Virus record (IMG/VR): IMGVR_UViG_3300018424_000041
Coordinates: 1-46,915 of that record
DNA length: 46,915 nucleotides
Origin: a virus
Direction: 5' to 3' (one strand)
Shown in pieces: positions 14,474-44,212 of the stretch. A program made the position numbers and the translations under genes. How positions within the stretch are numbered: the stretch's first letter is position 1; every line of letters begins with the position of its first letter. Under the pieces are notes generated by a model that did not search any database, was not told the origin of the DNA, and saw only the letters and a list, made by a program, of their open reading frames with translations.

Positions 14474-14656
14474 TCACTTGGTCTGATCGGGCATGTCTAC
14501 CTTGCTGTCGGTAATCATTGGTACCGGCTCTGCCGATCCCTGTGACTGCCTGAGGGCAACACGAAGAAGCGTGTTGTCAGCGGTTAGACGGTTTACCTGA
14601 TTCAGTAGATCCTGAATGACCTCATTGGGGTCGATGCTCATATTGTCTGTGCTCAT
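14474..14656 (-). CDS. Small coiled-coil protein of unknown function
   Basis: 60 residues. Its ATG overlaps the stop of the preceding gene as ATGA. Residues 10-40 (VIQDLLNQVNRLTADNTLLRVAL) have a clear heptad pattern of Leu/Val/Ile, so the protein probably oligomerises as a short coiled coil. The tail is polar with several Pro. The family is unknown to me; its neighbour is a conserved phage protein. Confidence 0.55.
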   Translation of the reverse strand: MSTDNMSIDPNEVIQDLLNQVNRLTADNTLLRVALRQSQGSAEPVPMITDSKVDMPDQTK

Positions 14657-15213
14657 GAGATTATGCTACTATCGGCAAAGTCGGATGTCAAGGAATCCCA
14701 CCAATGTGGGGCGTTTCGCCCCTTCTGCCACAAAGCGAACTTAGACTTGTCTAAGACGTAAAATTCACGATAACAGTCAACGGCCTCGTGGATGGGTAAA
14801 TGCGTTGACCCATACTTTTCCTGAAGATCTGGGCCAACGCATATAGCGATAGGCGTCAGATCTCCCGAGGGAACAAAGCCTGCGGATTCCTTGAGCTTGT
14901 CCAACTGCTTTAGGCACGCATGTTCCTTATTGAACCTGTAAGAGAACTCACCGGCAAGCGCCTCTGCGTGTTCCAGCAGCCAATTAAAGTTTTGTCGTGA
15001 TTCTCCCGCCCAAAGCGTGCTTGGATGATTAGCGTACCCTCCCTTGTGAGGCGTTCCCTTTGCCGTAAGCGGAACATCAGCATCCTCTGCGCCGTGTCTA
15101 CGGAGCGCCGAAACAAGCATCTGAACCGATTCTACGGTCATCTTCGGGACATGCTTGTCACACAAAGATAAAGCCGCATCTACTGGGTCTGTGTTTACTA
15201 CAAATATATTCAT
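14653..15213 (-). CDS. Conserved phage protein (MNIFVxxTDPVxAA family)
   Basis: 186 residues. The start at 15213 was chosen because AAAGGAG lies 7 bases upstream; an earlier in-frame start would read through the 3' half of the tRNA. The N-terminus MNIFVVNTDPVDAALSLCDK followed by HVPKMTVESVQML is a hallmark of a family found in many unrelated phages, often near nucleotide or DNA-repair genes; no function is firmly known to me. Conserved His, Cys and Lys in the first 30 residues and HPSTLWAGESRQNFNWLLEH in the middle look like possible active-site positions. Confidence 0.75.
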   Translation of the reverse strand: MNIFVVNTDPVDAALSLCDKHVPKMTVESVQMLVSALRRHGAEDADVPLTAKGTPHKGGYANHPSTLWAGESRQNFNWLLEHAEALAGEFSYRFNKEHACLKQLDKLKESAGFVPSGDLTPIAICVGPDLQEKYGSTHLPIHEAVDCYREFYVLDKSKFALWQKGRNAPHWWDSLTSDFADSSIIS

Positions 15214-15227
15214 CTTATCTCCTTTCG

Positions 15228-15300
15228 TGCCCCCGGCGGGATTCGAACCCACACTGAAAGCATTTTAAGTGCTCTGCCTCTGCCGTTGGGCTACGAGGGC
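15228..15300 (-). tRNA. tRNA with UAA anticodon (Leu, class I shape)
   Basis: A 73-base cloverleaf: acceptor stem GCCCTCG/CGGGGGC (one G-U), D stem GCC/GGC, anticodon stem GAGCA/TGCTT with loop CTTAAAA (U33, anticodon UAA), variable loop TCAGT, T stem GTGGG/CCCGC with TTCGAAT loop, discriminator A. CCA is not encoded. UAA would read UUA leucine codons, yet bacterial tRNA-Leu normally carries a long variable arm and this one has only five bases. It is transcribed between the sigma factor and a conserved phage gene whose ribosome site begins right after the tRNA 3' end. Confidence 0.88.
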
Positions 15301-30796: not shown

Positions 30797-32284
30797 TCAG
30801 ATGACTGGTGCGGTAAGGTTGCTCTTGGCGATGGTGATCTGAATTTGATCAGCAACGCTTGAGACGCGGACGCCGACCTGAGCCTTAACCAAGCCGGTGG
30901 CCAGCTGAGTGGTGGGGTTGTTGGTGCTATCTACCACAACGCTGAAACCGGGATCGACCAGCTTGCCATCCTCATCGTAGGCCTCGTAGAGACCACCGGC
31001 AAGGCGAATTGGCTCAAGGAAGGCCTTGATGGAGGCTCGCATGTTGCCGAACAGGTTGCCCCTGCCGTCAATTGTCTCAAAGACAAACTGCTCCATGCGC
31101 TCTTCGACGCCGTATACGATGTAGTTGAGAGTGTCTCTCAGGGTGATAAAGCGCCAGTTGGCCTCGTCATTTGAGGCTGAGCGAGCGCCGTACACTCTGA
31201 TTTGACCACTTACTGTCTTGATGGCGTTAACTCTTGCGGCATCAAGGAGGTTTGCCTGAGCTGGCGTAAGGTCAACCTCTAGGCCACGGAGGGTAGCGGC
31301 TGAAGAGATTGCTCCAGCGCCTGCCCGCCATGGACCACCAGCGGCCTGCACTGCCTTTGTGCGGGCGGCTGCTACGTAAGCTTCTGGCGAAATAGTTAGG
31401 GTTGAGCTCGTGATTGCTGAGGTGCCAGCGGCCAGCTCGTCAACTGATGGTGAGTCTACCTTTACGTGTGGGTAGTAGAACGCCATGTGATTTGCTGATG
31501 CATCGGCGGCATAATCAGCAGCCTCAGCCTTTACGGTTGCTTGTGAGGCGCCTGAAGCAAAGCCACAGAGAGCAACTCTGTTGTTTGCGGCGGCGTGATC
31601 CCGAAGACCGTTCCATACCGTTGATCCACTGCGACCCGGGGCAGCAACAGCACCGCTGTTGAGATTCGCCGTAAAGAGGTCCAATGCGTCAACAATCTGG
31701 TCAGTTGTAACCGTAGGCCCGTCTGCTCCACCACTGATTGGCGTGGGGACCAGATTGGCTGGGTAGTCATTTGAAGCGTTTGCGCTTGCTACTTCAACTA
31801 GGTGGTTTACGGAAGAAGCGTTAAGGGTTGCTACTCCGTCCGCAATGCTCGCTAGGTCGCGAGAGGTGTAAATCAAAGCGTCGTTGAGGTAGAACTTGAC
31901 TCGGTAGCCAGCATTGTCGCCGTCAACAACCTCAACCTTGAGGTTCTCGGACCACGCACCGGCGGTCTTGGCGGTCATGACCATTGACGCAGCGTCAGCG
32001 GCATCAAGAAGTGTGAGTGATCCAGCGCTGGCTCCTACGCCAGCTACACGCTGAACGTAGCAGCGGGTGCCGCCCTCGTCAAAGTAGGTCTTAACGTGTG
32101 CGTAGAGGTTCTCGCTCTGGTAGTCGCCGTAGTAAGTGACATAATCAGCGAAGCTGCGAAGTAGAGTTGGGCCGTCTACTGGTCCACGCTCTGTCTCACC
32201 TACAACGAAAAACTGACCAGCAACGATATCTCCGGCGCCTACTGGACCAGTTCTAACCGATGTGGTGATGTTAACTCCGGGCAT
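30797..32284 (-). CDS. Tail sheath protein
   Basis: 495 residues. N-terminus MPGVNITTSVRTGPVGAGDI and FFVVGETERGPVDGPTLLRS is the usual sheath start. The middle contains FYYPHVKVDSPS and the C-terminal part RFITLRDTLNYIVYGVEERM and NNPTTQLATGLVKAQVGVRV, conserved in sheath proteins. Contracts to drive the tube through the host envelope. ATG has GGAGG upstream and a structured leader. Confidence 0.92.
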   Translation of the reverse strand: MPGVNITTSVRTGPVGAGDIVAGQFFVVGETERGPVDGPTLLRSFADYVTYYGDYQSENLYAHVKTYFDEGGTRCYVQRVAGVGASAGSLTLLDAADAASMVMTAKTAGAWSENLKVEVVDGDNAGYRVKFYLNDALIYTSRDLASIADGVATLNASSVNHLVEVASANASNDYPANLVPTPISGGADGPTVTTDQIVDALDLFTANLNSGAVAAPGRSGSTVWNGLRDHAAANNRVALCGFASGASQATVKAEAADYAADASANHMAFYYPHVKVDSPSVDELAAGTSAITSSTLTISPEAYVAAARTKAVQAAGGPWRAGAGAISSAATLRGLEVDLTPAQANLLDAARVNAIKTVSGQIRVYGARSASNDEANWRFITLRDTLNYIVYGVEERMEQFVFETIDGRGNLFGNMRASIKAFLEPIRLAGGLYEAYDEDGKLVDPGFSVVVDSTNNPTTQLATGLVKAQVGVRVSSVADQIQITIAKSNLTAPVI

Positions 32285-33054: not shown

Positions 33055-33081
33055 TTTATACCTTTTTCTACTGAGAATCAA
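33055..33081 (-). promoter_or_regulatory. Possible promoter before gene 32711-33046
   Basis: TTGATT (33076-33081), 15 bases, TATAAA (33055-33060), eight bases, ATG. The spacing is short and the element overlaps the end of the giant gene, so this is weaker than the other promoters listed. Confidence 0.35.
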
Positions 33082-36000
33082 GATCAACTCCCGATGATCC
33101 AAGGAGCGTTAGGAAACCTAAAGCAAAGCTTAAAACATCTGGGTTGCTATATTCTGACGAATCTAAAGCAGTAAAGTTTCCGCCAAAAACATACTCCGCA
33201 AGCATTGAGACAACCTCTTGGCTCCCGTTTGGTCTGCGGTCTGCTGGAACTGGCATAGCGCTCGGGTAGGTCTTAAGTAAATAAGACTCTAGGTGTGATG
33301 GGTTTAATGCGGCTGGTATTGCTGTAATTTCGCCGTCATCGTATCTTGACCCGCCAAAAAGATCTGCAAGTTTTGAAGTTTCAAACTTTCCTCCATTGAG
33401 TTCCTTGAGTCTCTCGTGCTCGCTGGCTATGTAGGCGAAAGCCATTTCCTGTCTTTCCTTGATTGCGGGGAATTCCTTCGTGACATCTTTTTGTGACCTG
33501 TTTTCGGATACAGCGTGGCCTATCTCGTGTATTAGAACTTGGAGATACCCTTCAATTGGGGAATTTGCGTATCGCTCAGAAATTTGGATATATCTTTGGG
33601 TTTCGCTATAGTACCCTCGCTTGCCCGCACCCAAGCTCAGTCCTCGCGCATTTACTATATCTACCCACTCTTTAGGTATGGACTCTTGAACTTCTTTTAG
33701 AAGTTTGCGTGTTTCTTCTTCACCAATTACATCGCTGAGTAGTGATGTGTCGACAAAAGCAAATTCGCCAGTTCCAAATGTGGGATCAATCTCCCTCACT
33801 ATTTCTGTTACTGCTTGCCTTCTTGCTCTAGCAATTGTTGCGTTGTATCCCCCACCTAAACTTTCGTTAAAATCTCGCAATTCTGCTATTGCGGCGCCCT
33901 CTCTAGTTGTGCGTGTAACGAAGGTATCATAATTGTGCTGTATGGCACGGTCCATTATCGTTCTCAATGAATTCGCTATATTTTGTGTTGCTTCAGGTCT
34001 GTAGGTTTCGCTATCTATGTAGTTTTGGATTAAGGCTTCAATGTCTTGTTCTAAGTTCTTTCTGTAGTCGATTATGAACTGTGGATTTGAAGTTTTAAAA
34101 TCACTGTGCCTCAAATATCCGTTTACCTGAGTGATTCCCATTGAGTTAAAGTTATTAATTAAATATTCTTTTTCTGCCACCGCAGCGGGGTCATCTATGT
34201 CTCTCCAGATGAAACCAAGTATTTTGTTTAACTCCTCTTGATATATTTGAACTCTTTCTGCTCTAGCGGCTTCTTCAATGTTAAGTCTTAAAACTCTTGC
34301 TCTTTCGTGGTTTTTCGGATCACGCCAAGGGGAAGCTGCAACTATTCTTGCGGCTCTTCCTCCGACTTTTTCTTTAATTTTTCTACCCGCTGCAACGGTT
34401 GAAGCCACCTGAGCCTTGCCGTCCTTGGTAAGAGACCTTTCATAACTGCTTAGCTTGCTGTCACTTAGGAGAGCACCACGAATTCTGCTGTTTCTGCTTC
34501 GCATATCTCGCGCTCTTTGGCGAACCCGTTGAGCTAAAGAAACGTACTCTTCGTCAGCCATGAGGGGAATATCTAGAGATGGGTCATTGACCGCTTGGTC
34601 CATTTTTATAATTTGCTTGGCTAGATCTGTCAAATCTGAAGAGTCTGTATCTACTGGCGCTAGATCAGTAGCGTCGATACCTTCAACTGAAGCAGTATTT
34701 ACGTCTCCGTAAATCCTTATTTCATCAAGTGAACCAGAGCCAACGTCAAAGTTTGTGACCATAGCTCCAGTCTTAAGACTAGACTTTGGTACGTTTACTA
34801 TTCCGATTGAATCAGGATCAATCTCGGCAAATCTTTCAGTAGCATTGTCGGTAAACATGGGATCTTTAGGCTTTGAGCCGACCGACGAGCGCATTACGAA
34901 ATAGGCTCTATATGCTCCAGAAGGATCAGCTTCAATAGCCGATCTGAGTCTATCTTCTTGTTCGGCTGTCATGTCCGCACCGTACTTCTGCATGTCTGTC
35001 TTTGCGAGCCTAACAAACTCATCTGGGTTGTCAACCTGCCGTGATATTTGAGTCATAAGCTTCATATCCGATTCCAGCTGAGCGGCTGTATCTTGTGAAA
35101 CTGTCATTGACACGATAGCGTCTCTTGAGTCTCCACCTAAGCCTCCCGATCCACGAGCTCTCAATGTTCCTTCTCTGCGCACCGCTGGTGCGTTCACTGA
35201 GACGTGGAACAGGGTTTCGGGAATCATTGGATCATCTGGCGATATTGGGACGCCTCTAACGGTTTGATCTCTGTCCTCAGCAAAGCGTGTTAACTCTGAG
35301 AACTTAGGATTGCCAAACCCTCTGGGGTCTGTTGGGGAAACGCCATGATACTCGGGTGAGTCGGGGACGGAGATAGCCAGCGGGTTGTTGTTTGCATCCA
35401 TTACCACTGACTTTGTATCGTCAGTTGCGGATACGCTTGGTGACAAGCGAGGGCTTGGTCGATCTCCCGGCGTCTTGGGGGCGTTTAGATTTGCCCGCCT
35501 TCTGTCGTTCAGTGCGCCCGGTCGGTCTTTGCCTGCTATAGATGCAAGAACGCCAAGAACAACGTCACTGTGCTCTTGGTCGGGAGCGGGTACATCTAGC
35601 TGCGATTCTGCGGGTAGAAATATCCGTTCAAATCCAGTAGTAAATATTTCTGAGTGAATATCATCTCCACCATAAATTACTCCACTGTATGGGTCTGAGA
35701 AGTCGTCGTCAAGCATTAGTGCGGTATTATCGTGCTCTTTTAGCCCGTCAGGGCCAGCGTCTCTCGCCCGCTTGCTAAACAAGGCATCTCGCACAACAGC
35801 AAGTTCGGGTATTGCGTCTTCCATGCTGTGCATGATTTCATGACCAACTACACGACGTAGCGCTCTTCTTTGTACAGGATTCTGTGGGTCCGCTATTTCG
35901 GACGAGACTGCAATTACGTATGTGCCATCGGGCTTCTTGTAAAAGAGTCCGGTGGCACCCTGAAGGCTCGGTGAATCTGGCGAAAATATCTGAACCTGTA

Positions 36001-38200
36001 GATTTTTGCCAGAAATCCCTATCTCATCAATTAGTCTTTGTTGCCATGTCTCGGGCAAGAGGGTCATCGTGTACTTTATTGAGTCCTCTACTGCTGCTTG
36101 CGACCTGAGCTTGACTGCTTCTCTCTCCTCCGGCGGAACGGACTTGGGTAGGTATATTCTGTAAGTCGCTGGAATTTCTAGGTCTTCTCTACCTCGGCGT
36201 ACGTACCCGTCATCTCTGTTGGGTCTTCCGTATAGAGTCTGAACTATGGCCTTTTTCTGCAATGCTCGTATGCGCATTAGGTTTACATACTTCTGCTCCA
36301 TTATGTCGTTATACGCTTCTGTTGCTTCACGTATTTCAACACGAAGCCTTCTGCCCTGTGAGTCAAAGCCAACATCCGTATTCAGCGCAGAAATAAGCAT
36401 GTCACGCTCTGAGTCATCTAGGTCGTCTATATCTAGAATGTCTCTACCAAAAAGACGAGATGCGAAGTCTAGCGTCATTCTGTCTTCTCTTTGCAGAAGA
36501 TCAGACAATGCAGCGCTTCTTCTTCTCTCTTCGCTGTTGAGTGCGTCCTGTAGACGAAGAGCATCTTTGCCCTCCTGCGTCCCCATCCATAAGCGCTGAG
36601 CCCTAGTTCGTATCGATCTACCAACGCTAGACAAGTTGGTCAGGAGCTCTTCTCCCTGCTCGCTGAGTTCAGCCACGTTTCCGTCATCGTCAATGTACAA
36701 AGGAACTTCTACATCGGTTCCGTGGCTATTTACTGTAACTGTCTTCTTGTCCGTTTGGGTAGACACAGAAACACTTCCATCATCTACGCCGGTCATAACT
36801 TCGTCAACCGAGCGTCTGATTGGTCGCATCTTGTCAGGGCCAATAATATCTTCAGTTTCCTCCACCATCTGTGGTGAAGCCGGTCTTGGGTCTACTCCGG
36901 TACGACTTGCTTCTCTCTGTATCCGCTTTCGGTCGTCTATGCTTTTCTTTACAGTGTCGTGGATGCGCATCAGCTCGTCATATCTTGCCTTATCAGCCTC
37001 ATACTTTTGCCGCATTTCTTCATACCGTGGCTCGTTCTTATTTGGCTCAATAAGGTCAACGGGAAGGTCTTGCTCTTCGGCGTAATCCAGTAATGCGTAT
37101 AGGAGCTTGCCAGTGGCTTCTGAGTCAGCGTCTGCTGTGTGTGCCTTGTCTCCCAGCTCAATACCAAAAGCCTCAGCCAGAGCGCCCAACGTATGTCGCT
37201 TCGATATTGCCCCCTCTGCCTTTGTGTCGATTAGATCTCTTGAAATAGACAGGGTGTCTAGCTTTCCGGCTGGATTAAATCCCTCAATTCCTGCGGCGTT
37301 CAACTCAATCTCTTGTAGGCGATCATCGAATGTAAAGGCGTTGTGTCCCATGGTGTAGAACTCACCGCCGCCAATCCATTCAACAAAGCGCTCATGGCCC
37401 TCTTTGGTGGATGGCCAACCGGCTACCATTTCTGGGGTAATCAACTCACCATCAGCGTTCTTGAGATTATCTCTAGAGAAATCACTCCACTTGGAATGGG
37501 GAATGCCCGGGTCCATGTAGATATTTATCCTATCTACAACTTCGCCATCCACTATCTTTACTGCACCGATTTGAACAGCACGACCACCCTCGCTTACAAA
37601 CCCGGTTGTCTCATAGTCATAAGCTATGATGGTCTTACCCTTGAGTGCTTCTCTAACATCTTTCCACGACTTTGCTCCACGTATCAGCTCTTTGGCCTCT
37701 CCCTCGAAACCGTAGACCCTCTCCATTGGGTTGAATGGGCGAATTAAATTCCCATCGCTGTCAAAGATTTCGGGATAAAGTGATCTAAGCTCAGCAAGCT
37801 CGCTATCGCTAAATGTTTGCGCAATTTCAGATACAGGAACATCTATCTTTTTTGCTTTCTTGGGTGGGGCAACAACGCCAGTCAACTGGCCCACTGAGAG
37901 AAGTCCCCGATCCTCAAGTGAGCCAAATCGCTGCCCGATTGATAGCACGCCCTGACTCCACGAAGGACGGTAGTCTACCCTCTTTCCGTCACGGTCTACA
38001 ATCTGCAAGCCGCTAATGTCGGTAAGGTTTGTGCCAGATATCATTTCTGACAGCTCGGTGCCGTCAAGATTTATGAAACGTGTGCCGACTGGCCTCTCAA
38101 AGAGGGTACCTTCCTGAACAATGCCGTCATTGTCTGCGTCAACTGCGTCGGGGTTATACGGATCCGGTCTGAACCCTCCCCATCTTGTTGCTGTAGCCAT
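33068..38200 (-). CDS. Giant multidomain protein: DEDDh exonuclease, two zincin motifs, possible ART-like segment
   Basis: 1710 residues. Residues 14-30 hold a Ca-loop-like DADNDGIVQEG, part of an N-terminal YNPDAVDADNDGxxQEGTxFERP module that I associate with actinophage structural proteins. Residues 188-375 carry a DEDDh exonuclease: D195/E197 (YDYETTG), D292 (GHNAFTFD), H354 and D359 (HTADADSEA). The middle is helical. HEIMH at 787-791 with HSE at 849-851 is one zincin motif; HEIGH at 1558-1562 with E1662/E1669 is a second. Residues 995-1150 (ETLFHVSVNAPAVRREGTLR) resemble ADP-ribosyltransferase-like starts. Encoded between neck and sheath genes, it may be packaged and injected. No ribosome site; TAATAT precedes the ATG by six bases. 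Confidence 0.8.
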   Translation of the reverse strand: MATATRWGGFRPDPYNPDAVDADNDGIVQEGTLFERPVGTRFINLDGTELSEMISGTNLTDISGLQIVDRDGKRVDYRPSWSQGVLSIGQRFGSLEDRGLLSVGQLTGVVAPPKKAKKIDVPVSEIAQTFSDSELAELRSLYPEIFDSDGNLIRPFNPMERVYGFEGEAKELIRGAKSWKDVREALKGKTIIAYDYETTGFVSEGGRAVQIGAVKIVDGEVVDRINIYMDPGIPHSKWSDFSRDNLKNADGELITPEMVAGWPSTKEGHERFVEWIGGGEFYTMGHNAFTFDDRLQEIELNAAGIEGFNPAGKLDTLSISRDLIDTKAEGAISKRHTLGALAEAFGIELGDKAHTADADSEATGKLLYALLDYAEEQDLPVDLIEPNKNEPRYEEMRQKYEADKARYDELMRIHDTVKKSIDDRKRIQREASRTGVDPRPASPQMVEETEDIIGPDKMRPIRRSVDEVMTGVDDGSVSVSTQTDKKTVTVNSHGTDVEVPLYIDDDGNVAELSEQGEELLTNLSSVGRSIRTRAQRLWMGTQEGKDALRLQDALNSEERRRSAALSDLLQREDRMTLDFASRLFGRDILDIDDLDDSERDMLISALNTDVGFDSQGRRLRVEIREATEAYNDIMEQKYVNLMRIRALQKKAIVQTLYGRPNRDDGYVRRGREDLEIPATYRIYLPKSVPPEEREAVKLRSQAAVEDSIKYTMTLLPETWQQRLIDEIGISGKNLQVQIFSPDSPSLQGATGLFYKKPDGTYVIAVSSEIADPQNPVQRRALRRVVGHEIMHSMEDAIPELAVVRDALFSKRARDAGPDGLKEHDNTALMLDDDFSDPYSGVIYGGDDIHSEIFTTGFERIFLPAESQLDVPAPDQEHSDVVLGVLASIAGKDRPGALNDRRRANLNAPKTPGDRPSPRLSPSVSATDDTKSVVMDANNNPLAISVPDSPEYHGVSPTDPRGFGNPKFSELTRFAEDRDQTVRGVPISPDDPMIPETLFHVSVNAPAVRREGTLRARGSGGLGGDSRDAIVSMTVSQDTAAQLESDMKLMTQISRQVDNPDEFVRLAKTDMQKYGADMTAEQEDRLRSAIEADPSGAYRAYFVMRSSVGSKPKDPMFTDNATERFAEIDPDSIGIVNVPKSSLKTGAMVTNFDVGSGSLDEIRIYGDVNTASVEGIDATDLAPVDTDSSDLTDLAKQIIKMDQAVNDPSLDIPLMADEEYVSLAQRVRQRARDMRSRNSRIRGALLSDSKLSSYERSLTKDGKAQVASTVAAGRKIKEKVGGRAARIVAASPWRDPKNHERARVLRLNIEEAARAERVQIYQEELNKILGFIWRDIDDPAAVAEKEYLINNFNSMGITQVNGYLRHSDFKTSNPQFIIDYRKNLEQDIEALIQNYIDSETYRPEATQNIANSLRTIMDRAIQHNYDTFVTRTTREGAAIAELRDFNESLGGGYNATIARARRQAVTEIVREIDPTFGTGEFAFVDTSLLSDVIGEEETRKLLKEVQESIPKEWVDIVNARGLSLGAGKRGYYSETQRYIQISERYANSPIEGYLQVLIHEIGHAVSENRSQKDVTKEFPAIKERQEMAFAYIASEHERLKELNGGKFETSKLADLFGGSRYDDGEITAIPAALNPSHLESYLLKTYPSAMPVPADRRPNGSQEVVSMLAEYVFGGNFTALDSSEYSNPDVLSFALGFLTLLGSSGVDLDSQ

Positions 38201-38209
38201 ATCTATATA

Positions 38210-39085
38210 TTAGTCGCTAGGTGTGGCAGGTAGCGAGGAGCTTGAGAAGGCCCCTACTCCAGCATTGTTTACACCAGCAACTCGGAATCTGTAAGTTTCC
38301 CCATTTGTGAGGCCTGTAACGGTGTAGGTCGGATTTACGGAGCCAGTGTCGGCAATCGTGGTGGTCCAAGTAGATCCACCATCTTCACTCTGCTGCACCT
38401 GATAACCAGACACTTCGTATATTCCACCATTCCATGTTGACTCTTTCCAGCCAAGAGTTACCTGAGTGTCTCCAGCAACCGCAGAAACGCGAGTTGGGGC
38501 GTTCGGGGTAATGGGTAGTTTTTCTACCGTAGCTTCCTTGGAAAGCATTATTCCGGAGGGTTCTCTGATAATTGTCTCCTCTAGCGATAAATCATAGCTA
38601 ACATATGCGCCAGCGAGCAAACGCTCTCCCTTGATTAGGGTGAGGTCTGAGAACTCTTCCTGTATTGTTGATTCATCGATCTTGGGCGAGCATGGGACTG
38701 TACTGTCGTAGCTTGAAAGTGACGGGCCGTCCATTAGTGACTCACGAACAATCATTGTCAGGTTGTCTCGTTGGTCGGTGACAACATCTGCACCGCTTGC
38801 TCTGACCCATACGTATGTTCTCATTTCATAACTCACTCGGTAAACCGGGTCCGCAGAGTAAGTGTAGTCAGACCTCTCCATTCCTGTTGTCGACATGACC
38901 AGAGTGATTATGGTTGGCCACTTGTCTAGCGCAAATGGCTCGTATGAAAGGTAACGAACAGGGTCAGGCAGCTGTGTGCTGCTGAGATTCCATGCGTTCC
39001 TGTAGCCCAATATCCTGCTGGGCATGTCGTTTGCTAGATAGTTCGACACGTAGCTCTTGGCTAGTCTTGCGCCTGACATTTGCAT
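38210..39085 (-). CDS. Neck/tail terminator-like protein with C-terminal fibronectin III domain
   Basis: 291 residues. The first ~190 (YEPFALDKWPTIITLVMST, YRVSYEMRTYVWVRA, LTMIVRESLMDGP) look like a tail terminator/minor tail completion subunit by order and beta pattern. Residues about 195-290 are a clear FN3 domain: PNAPTRVSAVAGDTQVTLGW, YEVSGYQVQQSEDGGSTWT, YTVTGLTNGETYRFRVAGVN. ATG overlaps the previous stop as TAATG. FN3 domains on virions commonly aid weak binding to carbohydrates. Confidence 0.72.
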   Translation of the reverse strand: MQMSGARLAKSYVSNYLANDMPSRILGYRNAWNLSSTQLPDPVRYLSYEPFALDKWPTIITLVMSTTGMERSDYTYSADPVYRVSYEMRTYVWVRASGADVVTDQRDNLTMIVRESLMDGPSLSSYDSTVPCSPKIDESTIQEEFSDLTLIKGERLLAGAYVSYDLSLEETIIREPSGIMLSKEATVEKLPITPNAPTRVSAVAGDTQVTLGWKESTWNGGIYEVSGYQVQQSEDGGSTWTTTIADTGSVNPTYTVTGLTNGETYRFRVAGVNNAGVGAFSSSSLPATPSD

Positions 39086-39588
39086 TAGAAACTTCTCCTT
39101 CTGAACGCCCCAGTGGCTCTATTTACGCCTCTGCCTTCTACAATGTACGTTGCCATTCTGTCCGCTAGGCGAGACTGAAGAACCTCTGGGTTTACGATGG
39201 GTGGGCGCTCAGGCATATTGCGTGTCCCGGTTTGATGGAACCTTGCATATGGAATGCTTGTACCAAAGCGTGCCTTAGTTCTTCTGATCTCTCTGACCGC
39301 TCCACGAGCGTTGTCGAAAGTCAAGCTTCGCTGTAATTCTCCAGTGCGGACAAGTATACCGTTGGCGCCATAATTCTCAAGCTTCCATGCGGCATACTCA
39401 GGGTCTAGAGGTGCCCACACCCGACCACTAACAGCGCCCCTGCTTTGGAAGTTTAACCTGTGGGCAAGCTGAAGCTCCTTGAACGCCCATCGAAATACAG
39501 GCTTGAAATTTGTCATACGGCGAGCCATACCCGACAAACGGCGTTTTGGTTTATCTGCATCTACATTAATTGTTATGCGTAAGGGCAT
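39085..39588 (-). CDS. Phage virion morphogenesis/tail completion protein (gpG/HK97 gp10-like)
   Basis: 167 residues. WAPLDPEYAAWKLENYG, ILVRTGELQRSLTF and YARFHQTGTRNMPERPPI are the conserved blocks of the Mu gpG/P2 S virion morphogenesis family, which joins heads and tails. Basic at both ends. One base from the connector gene and overlapping the next gene as TAATG. Confidence 0.82.
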   Translation of the reverse strand: MPLRITINVDADKPKRRLSGMARRMTNFKPVFRWAFKELQLAHRLNFQSRGAVSGRVWAPLDPEYAAWKLENYGANGILVRTGELQRSLTFDNARGAVREIRRTKARFGTSIPYARFHQTGTRNMPERPPIVNPEVLQSRLADRMATYIVEGRGVNRATGAFRRRSF

Positions 39589-42256: not shown

Positions 42257-44212
42257 TTACCTGATTGGGCAGGCCCCAGTCACGCACTCAGCATCGAAAT
42301 CGTCGTCGCTCATGAGGGTTGAGCCACTCAGACGCTCTCCCAGACGCTGGGTCTTTGAGAGCATGTCCTCGTACTCTTCCTCTGATATCTCACCCATTGG
42401 GGCCTGATCGAAGCCGTGCTCGCTGTGTAGCAGGAAGCTTACTGACTTCATCTCTGCCCAATGCTCGGCAAGGTACGCCTTGATATCCTCAAGCTCTTCC
42501 ATACGGTAGTAGACAGTAACCGAAATGGAGTTGTCTGCCCATACCTTCTGGAGCTTGCGAACGAGGTCCATCTGCTCAATGGCAGACATATCCTCAGCAA
42601 GAATGGTACCCTCTGGGAATGCACATGGGAACTCAACAACCACGGTCCTGTGATCTTCTGAACCGTCGAAGTTGCGGAGCGGCTCCACGTGATAGCCCTT
42701 GCCCTTGCAGTAATCAACAAGAACATCGTGAGCGGACATTCTCATCCGCTTTACGAAGTACTGGCTGAAACCGGGGTGAACGCCGGGCGTTACGCCGGGG
42801 AGCAGGCTGAGCGTGCCCGAGGGCTTGATCGTCGTGAGACGAACTGACTCTGGCCAGTTGTGCTTCTCGGACCACTCGGCGTCAAGCTTGCGAAGCTCTA
42901 CGTAAGCCTCGTCAAGCCAATCAACCTTGTCCATTGCCTGCGCAACTCCGGTAACACCAAGACCCAGCCTCATGTTTGCTGAAGTAATCTTGTCAGATGT
43001 TGGGTCTAGGTATGAGAGGGCTGCTACAGCCTTCTGAACCTTGTAGAGAAGCTGAACAACGTCGATCAGCTCTTCCTTGGACTCAATCATCGGCAGATAT
43101 ACCTCAGAAAGGTTGCAGGACTCTCGGTGCGCCAAGGGAATCTCAGCGCACGGATTTACTCCAACGATTGTTGGGTCTGGGCGATGCTCGCCGGTGCGAC
43201 CAAACTCACGGGATGCCTCAAGGTTGAAGAAACCGTATGGCTCTCCGTTGCCTTTGTACCCCTCCCACACCATTTCTGGCATGTTCTTCATCTGCTCGGC
43301 GTTGACAAATACCGTATTGTTCGACATGGCACGCTCAATTGGGATGTTGCCCAAGTCCCAGCGCTTAGCCATGAGGTAGCCCTCGTCATCGATGGAACCG
43401 ACCGCAATCTCGGCGCTTCTGCGAACATTACCAGCAACCACAATGGAGCCAATGATGTTCATGCAGTCAAGAACCTCAACTGAAGTCATCTCGCGACCAA
43501 CGGCACCGTCAAGAACCTTACAGATCTTTTCGACACCCTCAATGAGAATCTCTGGGCCGGAGGCAGTACCACCAAATGTCTTGATTGGGGTCCCAGCCTT
43601 CCGGACCAGATGCGTGGCGTAGCGCATGACGTTTGACTTATTGTCATCGCCAAGGTAGCACTCAAAAACTCGTCTGATGAGTTCACCCCAGCCCTCGCGC
43701 TTGTCTGGGACTATGTAGTCTGAGTCGTCTGCGTCGATGTGCTCAACCCAAGCTGGTCGGACTACGCCAAGACGCTCTGGCTTGTCACATGAGAAGCCAA
43801 CGCCGCCACCAAGCATGAGTCGCTCAACGGCCCAAGAGAAATCTGATGGCTGATTAATATCAACAAACCAGCAGTTTACGAGGCTGTCGCCGCCAAGACG
43901 CTTGTTGTTAGGAGTGCCTAACTGCCACAACATTCGACCAGCGACATTGCCCTTGAGGTTGAAGATGTAATCATATAGACGGTGGGCCTCTTCTTCGGAA
44001 AGATCGGCACCAATGTCCTGAGCGCCATTGACGACCCGCTGGACCGTCTCGTGCCACTCCTCGGTTCGGATTACATTGTCGTTGTCATCGAAAAATGGAC
44101 GAGCGTAAGTGCGCTTGTACGTAACGTACCCTAGGCCGTTGAAGCCCCACGGGGGCATCTTATCTGCGTATGAGGCAGCCGTCTCGTCACTGATTCGTGG
44201 CATGTTTTCCAT
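42257..44212 (-). CDS. nrdJ: Class II (adenosylcobalamin-dependent) ribonucleoside-triphosphate reductase
   Basis: 651 residues, monomeric type. Catalytic loop N353-P-C355-A-E357 (NPCAEIPL), redox Cys C114 (LVNCWFVDI) and C366 (RESCNLSE), and a C-terminal CVTGAC pair (C643/C648) correspond to the thiyl Cys, active-site pair and swinging-arm pair of the Lactobacillus leichmannii enzyme. Makes deoxynucleotides for phage replication without oxygen but needs B12 from the host. ATG at 44212 has AAGGAG. Preceded by a promoter and a 125-base structured leader, followed by a structured stretch and terminator, so it is a monocistronic unit. Confidence 0.95.
   Translation of the reverse strand: MENMPRISDETAASYADKMPPWGFNGLGYVTYKRTYARPFFDDNDNVIRTEEWHETVQRVVNGAQDIGADLSEEEAHRLYDYIFNLKGNVAGRMLWQLGTPNNKRLGGDSLVNCWFVDINQPSDFSWAVERLMLGGGVGFSCDKPERLGVVRPAWVEHIDADDSDYIVPDKREGWGELIRRVFECYLGDDNKSNVMRYATHLVRKAGTPIKTFGGTASGPEILIEGVEKICKVLDGAVGREMTSVEVLDCMNIIGSIVVAGNVRRSAEIAVGSIDDEGYLMAKRWDLGNIPIERAMSNNTVFVNAEQMKNMPEMVWEGYKGNGEPYGFFNLEASREFGRTGEHRPDPTIVGVNPCAEIPLAHRESCNLSEVYLPMIESKEELIDVVQLLYKVQKAVAALSYLDPTSDKITSANMRLGLGVTGVAQAMDKVDWLDEAYVELRKLDAEWSEKHNWPESVRLTTIKPSGTLSLLPGVTPGVHPGFSQYFVKRMRMSAHDVLVDYCKGKGYHVEPLRNFDGSEDHRTVVVEFPCAFPEGTILAEDMSAIEQMDLVRKLQKVWADNSISVTVYYRMEELEDIKAYLAEHWAEMKSVSFLLHSEHGFDQAPMGEISEEEYEDMLSKTQRLGERLSGSTLMSDDDFDAECVTGACPIR

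Follow-up and report, generated by a model that had tools for sequence, protein, structure and literature searches.

A giant phage protein with a reused N-terminal module and exchangeable enzymatic cargo: a candidate virion-packaged effector

The 1710-residue gene and its neighbourhood

The DNA analysed was the whole of IMG/VR virus record IMGVR_UViG_3300018424_000041 (46,915 bases; hereafter the window). A giant multi-domain gene of 1710 amino acids, with an ATG start and without an internal stop, was found on the minus strand at 33068..38200, as an earlier sequence-only reading had described; a 100% identical copy is carried by IMGVR_UViG_3300023180_000202, a second record of the same phage. 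The position between neck and sheath genes given by that reading was also borne out. On the minus strand, the order is Neck1/tail completion protein (39085..39588; phrog_26, 8e-19), a 291-amino acid neck/tail protein with a C-terminal FN3 domain (38210..39085), the 1710-residue gene, two open reading frames (ORFs) of approximately 100 amino acids and the tail sheath protein (30797..32284; phrog_23, 2e-42). The genes form a tight run, in which the TAA of the FN3 gene ends 9 nt ahead of the ATG of the giant gene. The two small downstream ORFs were without annotation; neither an immunity nor a chaperone gene was recognised. Elsewhere in the window, a B12-dependent (class II) ribonucleotide reductase gene (42257-44212) lies in the stretch from the capsid to the neck genes; with 81-83% identity across the lineage, it is better conserved than the neck proteins. 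At 14653-15300, a pyrimidine dimer glycosylase ORF (14653-15252) has its start within a tRNA-Leu (15227-15300).

The Neck-FN3-giant gene-sheath order is kept in loci L011-L015, L017 and L018. Across five distinct relatives at this locus (L011, L013, L014, L015 and L017) the neighbours are conserved, with 57-71% identity between the FN3 protein of the window and those of distinct relatives, and the proteins encoded in between range from 958 to 2411 amino acids, including a 1177-amino acid homologue in L011. The capsid protein of the window is 47-50% identical to the capsids of Gordonia and Brevibacterium myoviruses, a similarity which suggests Actinobacteria as hosts, and the sheath is at most 37% identical to the sheaths of these phages. 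Gene order was compared with that of other phages, as had been proposed: the locus is kept in uncultivated relatives, and the cultured Gordonia/Brevibacterium cousins have a neck gene, a 203-231 amino acid protein, a protein of approximately 100 amino acids and the sheath, with no giant gene between. The gene therefore represents either an insertion relative to these cousins or a loss in them.

Enzymatic domains of the protein

Residues 188-378 (37067..37639, minus strand) encode a DEDDh (DnaQ-like) 3'-5' exonuclease domain, the identity of which is certain from sequence comparison. Pfam RNase_T matched residues 192-367 above its cut-off (E = 1.2e-11), phrog_192 (DNA polymerase exonuclease subunit) matched at 8e-30, and the region was also matched by PolC/DnaQ-type NCBIfam models. 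The catalytic residues read from the sequence beforehand (D195, E197, D292, H354 and D359) are all present and are kept in 6/6 aligned sequences, an alignment which includes L011, L015, L017, L023 and the neighbouring ORF of L016.

The protein also contains two HExxH motifs, HEIMH at residues 787-791 and HEIGH at residues 1558-1562. The first lies in a domain designated zincin 1 (residues 686-890; 35531..36145, minus strand; HEIMH at 35828-35842), for which E851 is the predicted third ligand. This domain is similar to the C-terminus of gp68 of Bacillus phage vB_BboS-125, annotated as a head morphogenesis protein (3e-4). A profile which combined the sequences of the window and L011 with two from phages matched 26 loci in viral contigs, and the domain forms the terminal or near-terminal part of the relatives' proteins. 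A MuF domain scored above the Pfam cut-off in 13 of the 16 zincin 1 records checked, and in 12 of those 13 the MuF-bearing ORF equals the zincin-bearing ORF in length; zincin 1 thus recurs as a domain attached to a head protein. Pfam did not recognise zincin 1, and its profile gave chance-level matches only against PDB sequences. The HExxH motif together with E794, D832, Y838, G840, E851 and D874 is identical in 17/17 distinct sequences, and the assignment of zincin 1 as a real metallopeptidase family is solid at the level of sequence.

The second motif (HEIGH at 33515-33529) falls within putative zincin 2 (residues 1490-1700; 33101..33733, minus strand), which follows a predicted helical region (residues 1180-1470; 33791..34663, minus strand; low-confidence model). 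Residues 1499-1590 gave weak Pfam matches to MPTase-PolyVal (8e-4), SprT-like (1e-3) and M78 (0.2), and the region also weakly matches oligoendopeptidase F. These matches lend weak support to a putative metalloprotease. The 1177-residue orthologue in L011 ends ahead of this region and has no zincin 2, and repeated searches for homologues recovered none beyond one identical contig. Both motifs named in the sequence-only reading are present; the first belongs to a conserved family, the second to a putative protease.

It is highly improbable that the exonuclease alone works and that the HExxH motifs arose by chance or are inactive. Such a reading draws on the lack of zincin 2 homologues, on the sub-threshold Pfam matches and on the low confidence at which both regions were modelled; against it, residue shuffling gave a mean of 0.018 HExxH motifs per shuffle, with at least two in only 1/20,000 shuffles, and zincin 1 keeps both the motif and the third ligand throughout its family. 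Structure models of the zincin and ADP-ribosyltransferase (ART)-like regions were poor. Prediction across the HExxH segments, suggested earlier as a check, placed three strands and then the HExxH helix at zincin 1, but at low confidence (pLDDT 39 for residues 590-1710), and the model of this region and its PDB search were uninformative.

Between the two zincin regions, residues 919-1175 (34676..35446, minus strand) form a probable ART-like domain, an assignment made on its likeness to the C-terminal domain of a protein of L022, a phage with a different neighbourhood. The two are 67% identical, compared with 50% identity between the domain of the window and that of its own-locus orthologue in L011. 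They share the stretches LFHVS, GTL, IVSMT and LDEIRIYGDV, which resemble ART motifs and are suggestive. The two domains ahead of the last one in L022 weakly match KptA-type and Arr-type transferases, but pairwise HMM comparison of residues 919-1175 with the first ART-like domain of L022 gave only P = 0.04. No Pfam match to residues 919-1175 was obtained, their profile gave chance-level matches only against PDB sequences, and further relatives of the domain were sought but not found. L022 (7977-10208) seemingly carries three consecutive ART-like domains (KptA-like, Arr-like and the 919-1175 type) in one module protein.

A reused N-terminal module with variable cargo

Residues 5-110 (37871..38188, minus strand) form a reused N-terminal module with the core PYxPDAxDADNDGIVQEGTxxERPxGT; like the ART-like domain, this is new beyond the first reading. 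A search with residues 1-130 identified 57 viral loci, one of which is the second record of the window phage. The other loci hold 57 non-identical module ORFs, several of them truncated or near-identical to one another, and the underlying IMG/VR records are mostly fragments. The module is N-terminal in 36 of the 57 ORFs and internal in 21, and beyond the first ~100 residues most module proteins differ. D21, D23, N24, D25, G26, I27, V28, Q29, E30, T32, E35, R36 and P37 are invariant in 20 aligned copies. The L022 copy was modelled at pLDDT 83-97 over residues ~10-80; this model had no PDB match, and viral fold searches gave nothing trustworthy.

No Pfam model covers the module in the window protein or in the module proteins of relatives. 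Among PHROGs, one small unknown family (phrog_7924) matches the motif (best 9e-4), and tblastn of module versions against 50,697 cultured-phage records gave no convincing match. Low-complexity filtering was considered as a cause of missed matches and rejected, as local BLAST with the filter on still recovered motif-only copies. The whole 1710-residue protein had no relative among genome contigs. A motif scan returned only three contigs from metagenome-assembled genomes (MAGs), and a further, weak match came from 395 genomes belonging to the same class as the third MAG; such scans catch copies near DNDGIVQEGT and undercount variants, and these matches indicate no firm host.

The motif resembles two known elements. 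In Excalibur-type calcium loops the pattern is DxDxDGxxCE; the module has the same D-x-D-x-D-G-x-x-x-E spacing but has Q where Excalibur has Cys, and no Excalibur Pfam match was found in the window protein. In phage T4, with Alt and the capsid-targeting sequence, a short N-terminal element directs an enzyme into the head. The VQE/GT of the module appears similar to a prohead-protease cleavage site, but unlike the T4 sequence the module is a predicted fold of ~75 residues with a DxDxDG loop. VQE/GT as a prohead-protease site is a tentative lead, since D replaces E (VQD) in some copies.

Pfam annotation of the module proteins revealed a varied set of enzymes. Zeta toxin follows the module in L026, L033, L049, L058, L064 and L158, an ADP-ribosyltransferase exoenzyme (ADPrib_exo_Tox) occurs in L026 and L033, an Arr-type ART (Arr-ms) in L022, and RNase_T in the window, L015 and L023. 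Other cargo comprises UvrD helicase (L055), ArdC-N with MPTase-PolyVal (L063), NUDIX (L156) and KTSC (L058). A DUF3721 domain (PF12518) opens several module proteins (L049, L058, L064, L154 and L158). The module occurs twice within a single polypeptide in L033 (7977-12020) and L020 (6916-8580), an arrangement resembling a fusion of two module genes, and small Lys/Pro-rich proteins bearing only the module motif were seen in L151 (4284-4619), L152 (4536-4922) and L153 (4337-4741).

In six records (L055, L056, L063, L157, L160 and G017, the last by record search) the module is fused in the same ORF behind a Peptidase_S78 prohead protease. By raw count, only 28/57 module ORFs have a detected structural gene no more than 2.5 kb away or as part of the same ORF; neighbours were found by BLAST with structural proteins from the window and five cultured phages as references, which misses distant structural genes. 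One lineage instead has its module gene behind a DNA primase/helicase gene. This last arrangement, and the roughly half of module ORFs with no adjacent detected structural gene, would suit a moron in the late run which encodes an unpackaged intracellular enzyme for late host takeover or superinfection blocking, with the module as a stability or interaction domain. We consider this unlikely, as module and cargo are connected with the head through the in-frame S78 fusions and through the association of zincin 1 with MuF.

Close relatives show how the cargo varies. The DNA of L013 and L014 is colinear at 80% identity over a stretch that begins 7.9 kb upstream and breaks off near codon 489 of the module gene; colinearity resumes downstream, at 81-84% over 4.5 kb. 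Up to residue 494 their module proteins share 80% identity, and beyond it they are unrelated. For L015 and L017, the FN3 neighbour is 99.7% identical and the DNA is 97-100% identical at the module and exonuclease end, followed by patches of 44-95% up to the sheath. As the whole proteins of this pair are still 65% identical, this is mosaic divergence and not clean replacement. By sequence comparison, then, the enzymatic cargo has been replaced (L013/L014) or has strongly diverged (L015/L017) behind a constant front, the constant-front, exchanged-tip pattern of polymorphic toxins. The closer match of the window's ART-like domain to that of L022 than to that of its own-locus orthologue points the same way.

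These exchanges also bear on the possibility that the protein is a neck/tail structural or assembly factor which stays in the particle without being injected, its zincins processing virion proteins or itself. The gene adjoins neck genes, other phages have the module joined to their prohead maturation protease, and in L153 the motif is the C-terminal tail of a short protein just ahead of the sheath gene. However, an assembly role sits poorly with the lack of the gene at the locus of cultured relatives, with cargo such as Zeta toxin and ADP-ribosyltransferase, which has no evident assembly role, and with the change of cargo between L013 and L014 while their sheath and FN3 proteins stay 87-92% identical. 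This explanation is accordingly judged improbable.

Proposed role and comparison with known systems

A nuclease, one or more proteases and a probable modifying enzyme behind a module which is reused with different enzymes point to a toolkit that is probably carried in the virion. The favoured reading, which we hold to be fairly likely, is of a polyvalent effector with a constant front and exchangeable cargo that is packaged in the virion, ejected and active at infection onset. The protein would be made late, alongside virion proteins, enter the particle by means of its N-terminal module and pass with the DNA into the next host on ejection, where the exonuclease, the zincin(s) and the ART-like domain would attack host nucleic acids and proteins as infection begins. 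A zincin might also cut the polyprotein into working pieces. Cargo would be exchanged through recombination within the gene while the front module stays constant. Packaging, ejection, targets (host DNA or defence proteins in the sequence-only reading) and self-cleavage are what we infer here, as is a docking role of the module, towards which three indirect lines converge: the S78 fusions, the occurrence of zincin 1 on MuF proteins and the place of the gene in the late run. The limited structural proximity of module ORFs, the primase/helicase-adjacent lineage and the absence of the gene from the cultured cousins' locus count against the packaged-effector reading, as do the poor structure models of the zincin and ART-like regions and the failure to identify an immunity or chaperone gene.

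Phage polyvalent proteins have been argued to reach the host by virion delivery (Iyer et al. 2017, PMC5512222), and self-cutting by a zincin was proposed there for P1 DdrB. The resemblance seen in the sequence-only reading stands in several respects: unrelated enzymatic domains share one polypeptide (at least two disparate activities, exonuclease and zincin 1), the gene lies in a late virion run, zincin 1 is common to MuF head proteins, and relatives carry polyvalent cargo. Zincins are the commonest domain of polyvalent proteins, and their ART and ArdC partners also occur in the wider set of module proteins. That reading missed the reused module, and it is here that the family departs from polyvalent proteins, which are said not to follow the constant-N/variable-C organisation of secreted toxins (PMC5512222). 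Neither a DnaQ/DEDD exonuclease domain nor Zeta toxin is mentioned in the main text of that paper.

Such an organisation has been described for the MuF toxins of temperate phages, in which a constant virion-linked N-terminal domain precedes variable C-terminal toxins; a metallopeptidase is present in 20% of these (Jamet et al. 2017, PMC5576092). The module family is similar in its constant N-terminus and exchanged C-terminal effector (clearly in L013/L014, as a mosaic in L015/L017), and the zincin 1 family itself sits C-terminally on MuF proteins. It differs in its front module, in having several enzymatic domains per protein and in its occurrence, which is confined in these searches to uncultivated phages plus a small number of MAG contigs; the window protein gave no match to the MuF domain (PF04233), even with E values as high as 1 allowed.

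Whether the DNDGIVQEGT-ERP module is an undescribed virion-cargo docking domain, with polymorphic-toxin-like swapping and several loaded proteins per phage, seems evenly poised. The G018 record alone has five ORFs with the module, of which four are large and one is small. If the module does carry cargo, it would be a short genetic tag marking virion-delivered effectors in uncultured phages, which could be listed by one profile search; it would hint at how phages exchange early-infection weapons, and it might serve as a tag with which to load proteins into phage particles. Gordonia phage DalanDe (L007, 5425-10326) encodes a 1633-amino acid "capsid maturation protease" which far exceeds the length of its counterparts and may carry fused cargo without the N-terminal module.
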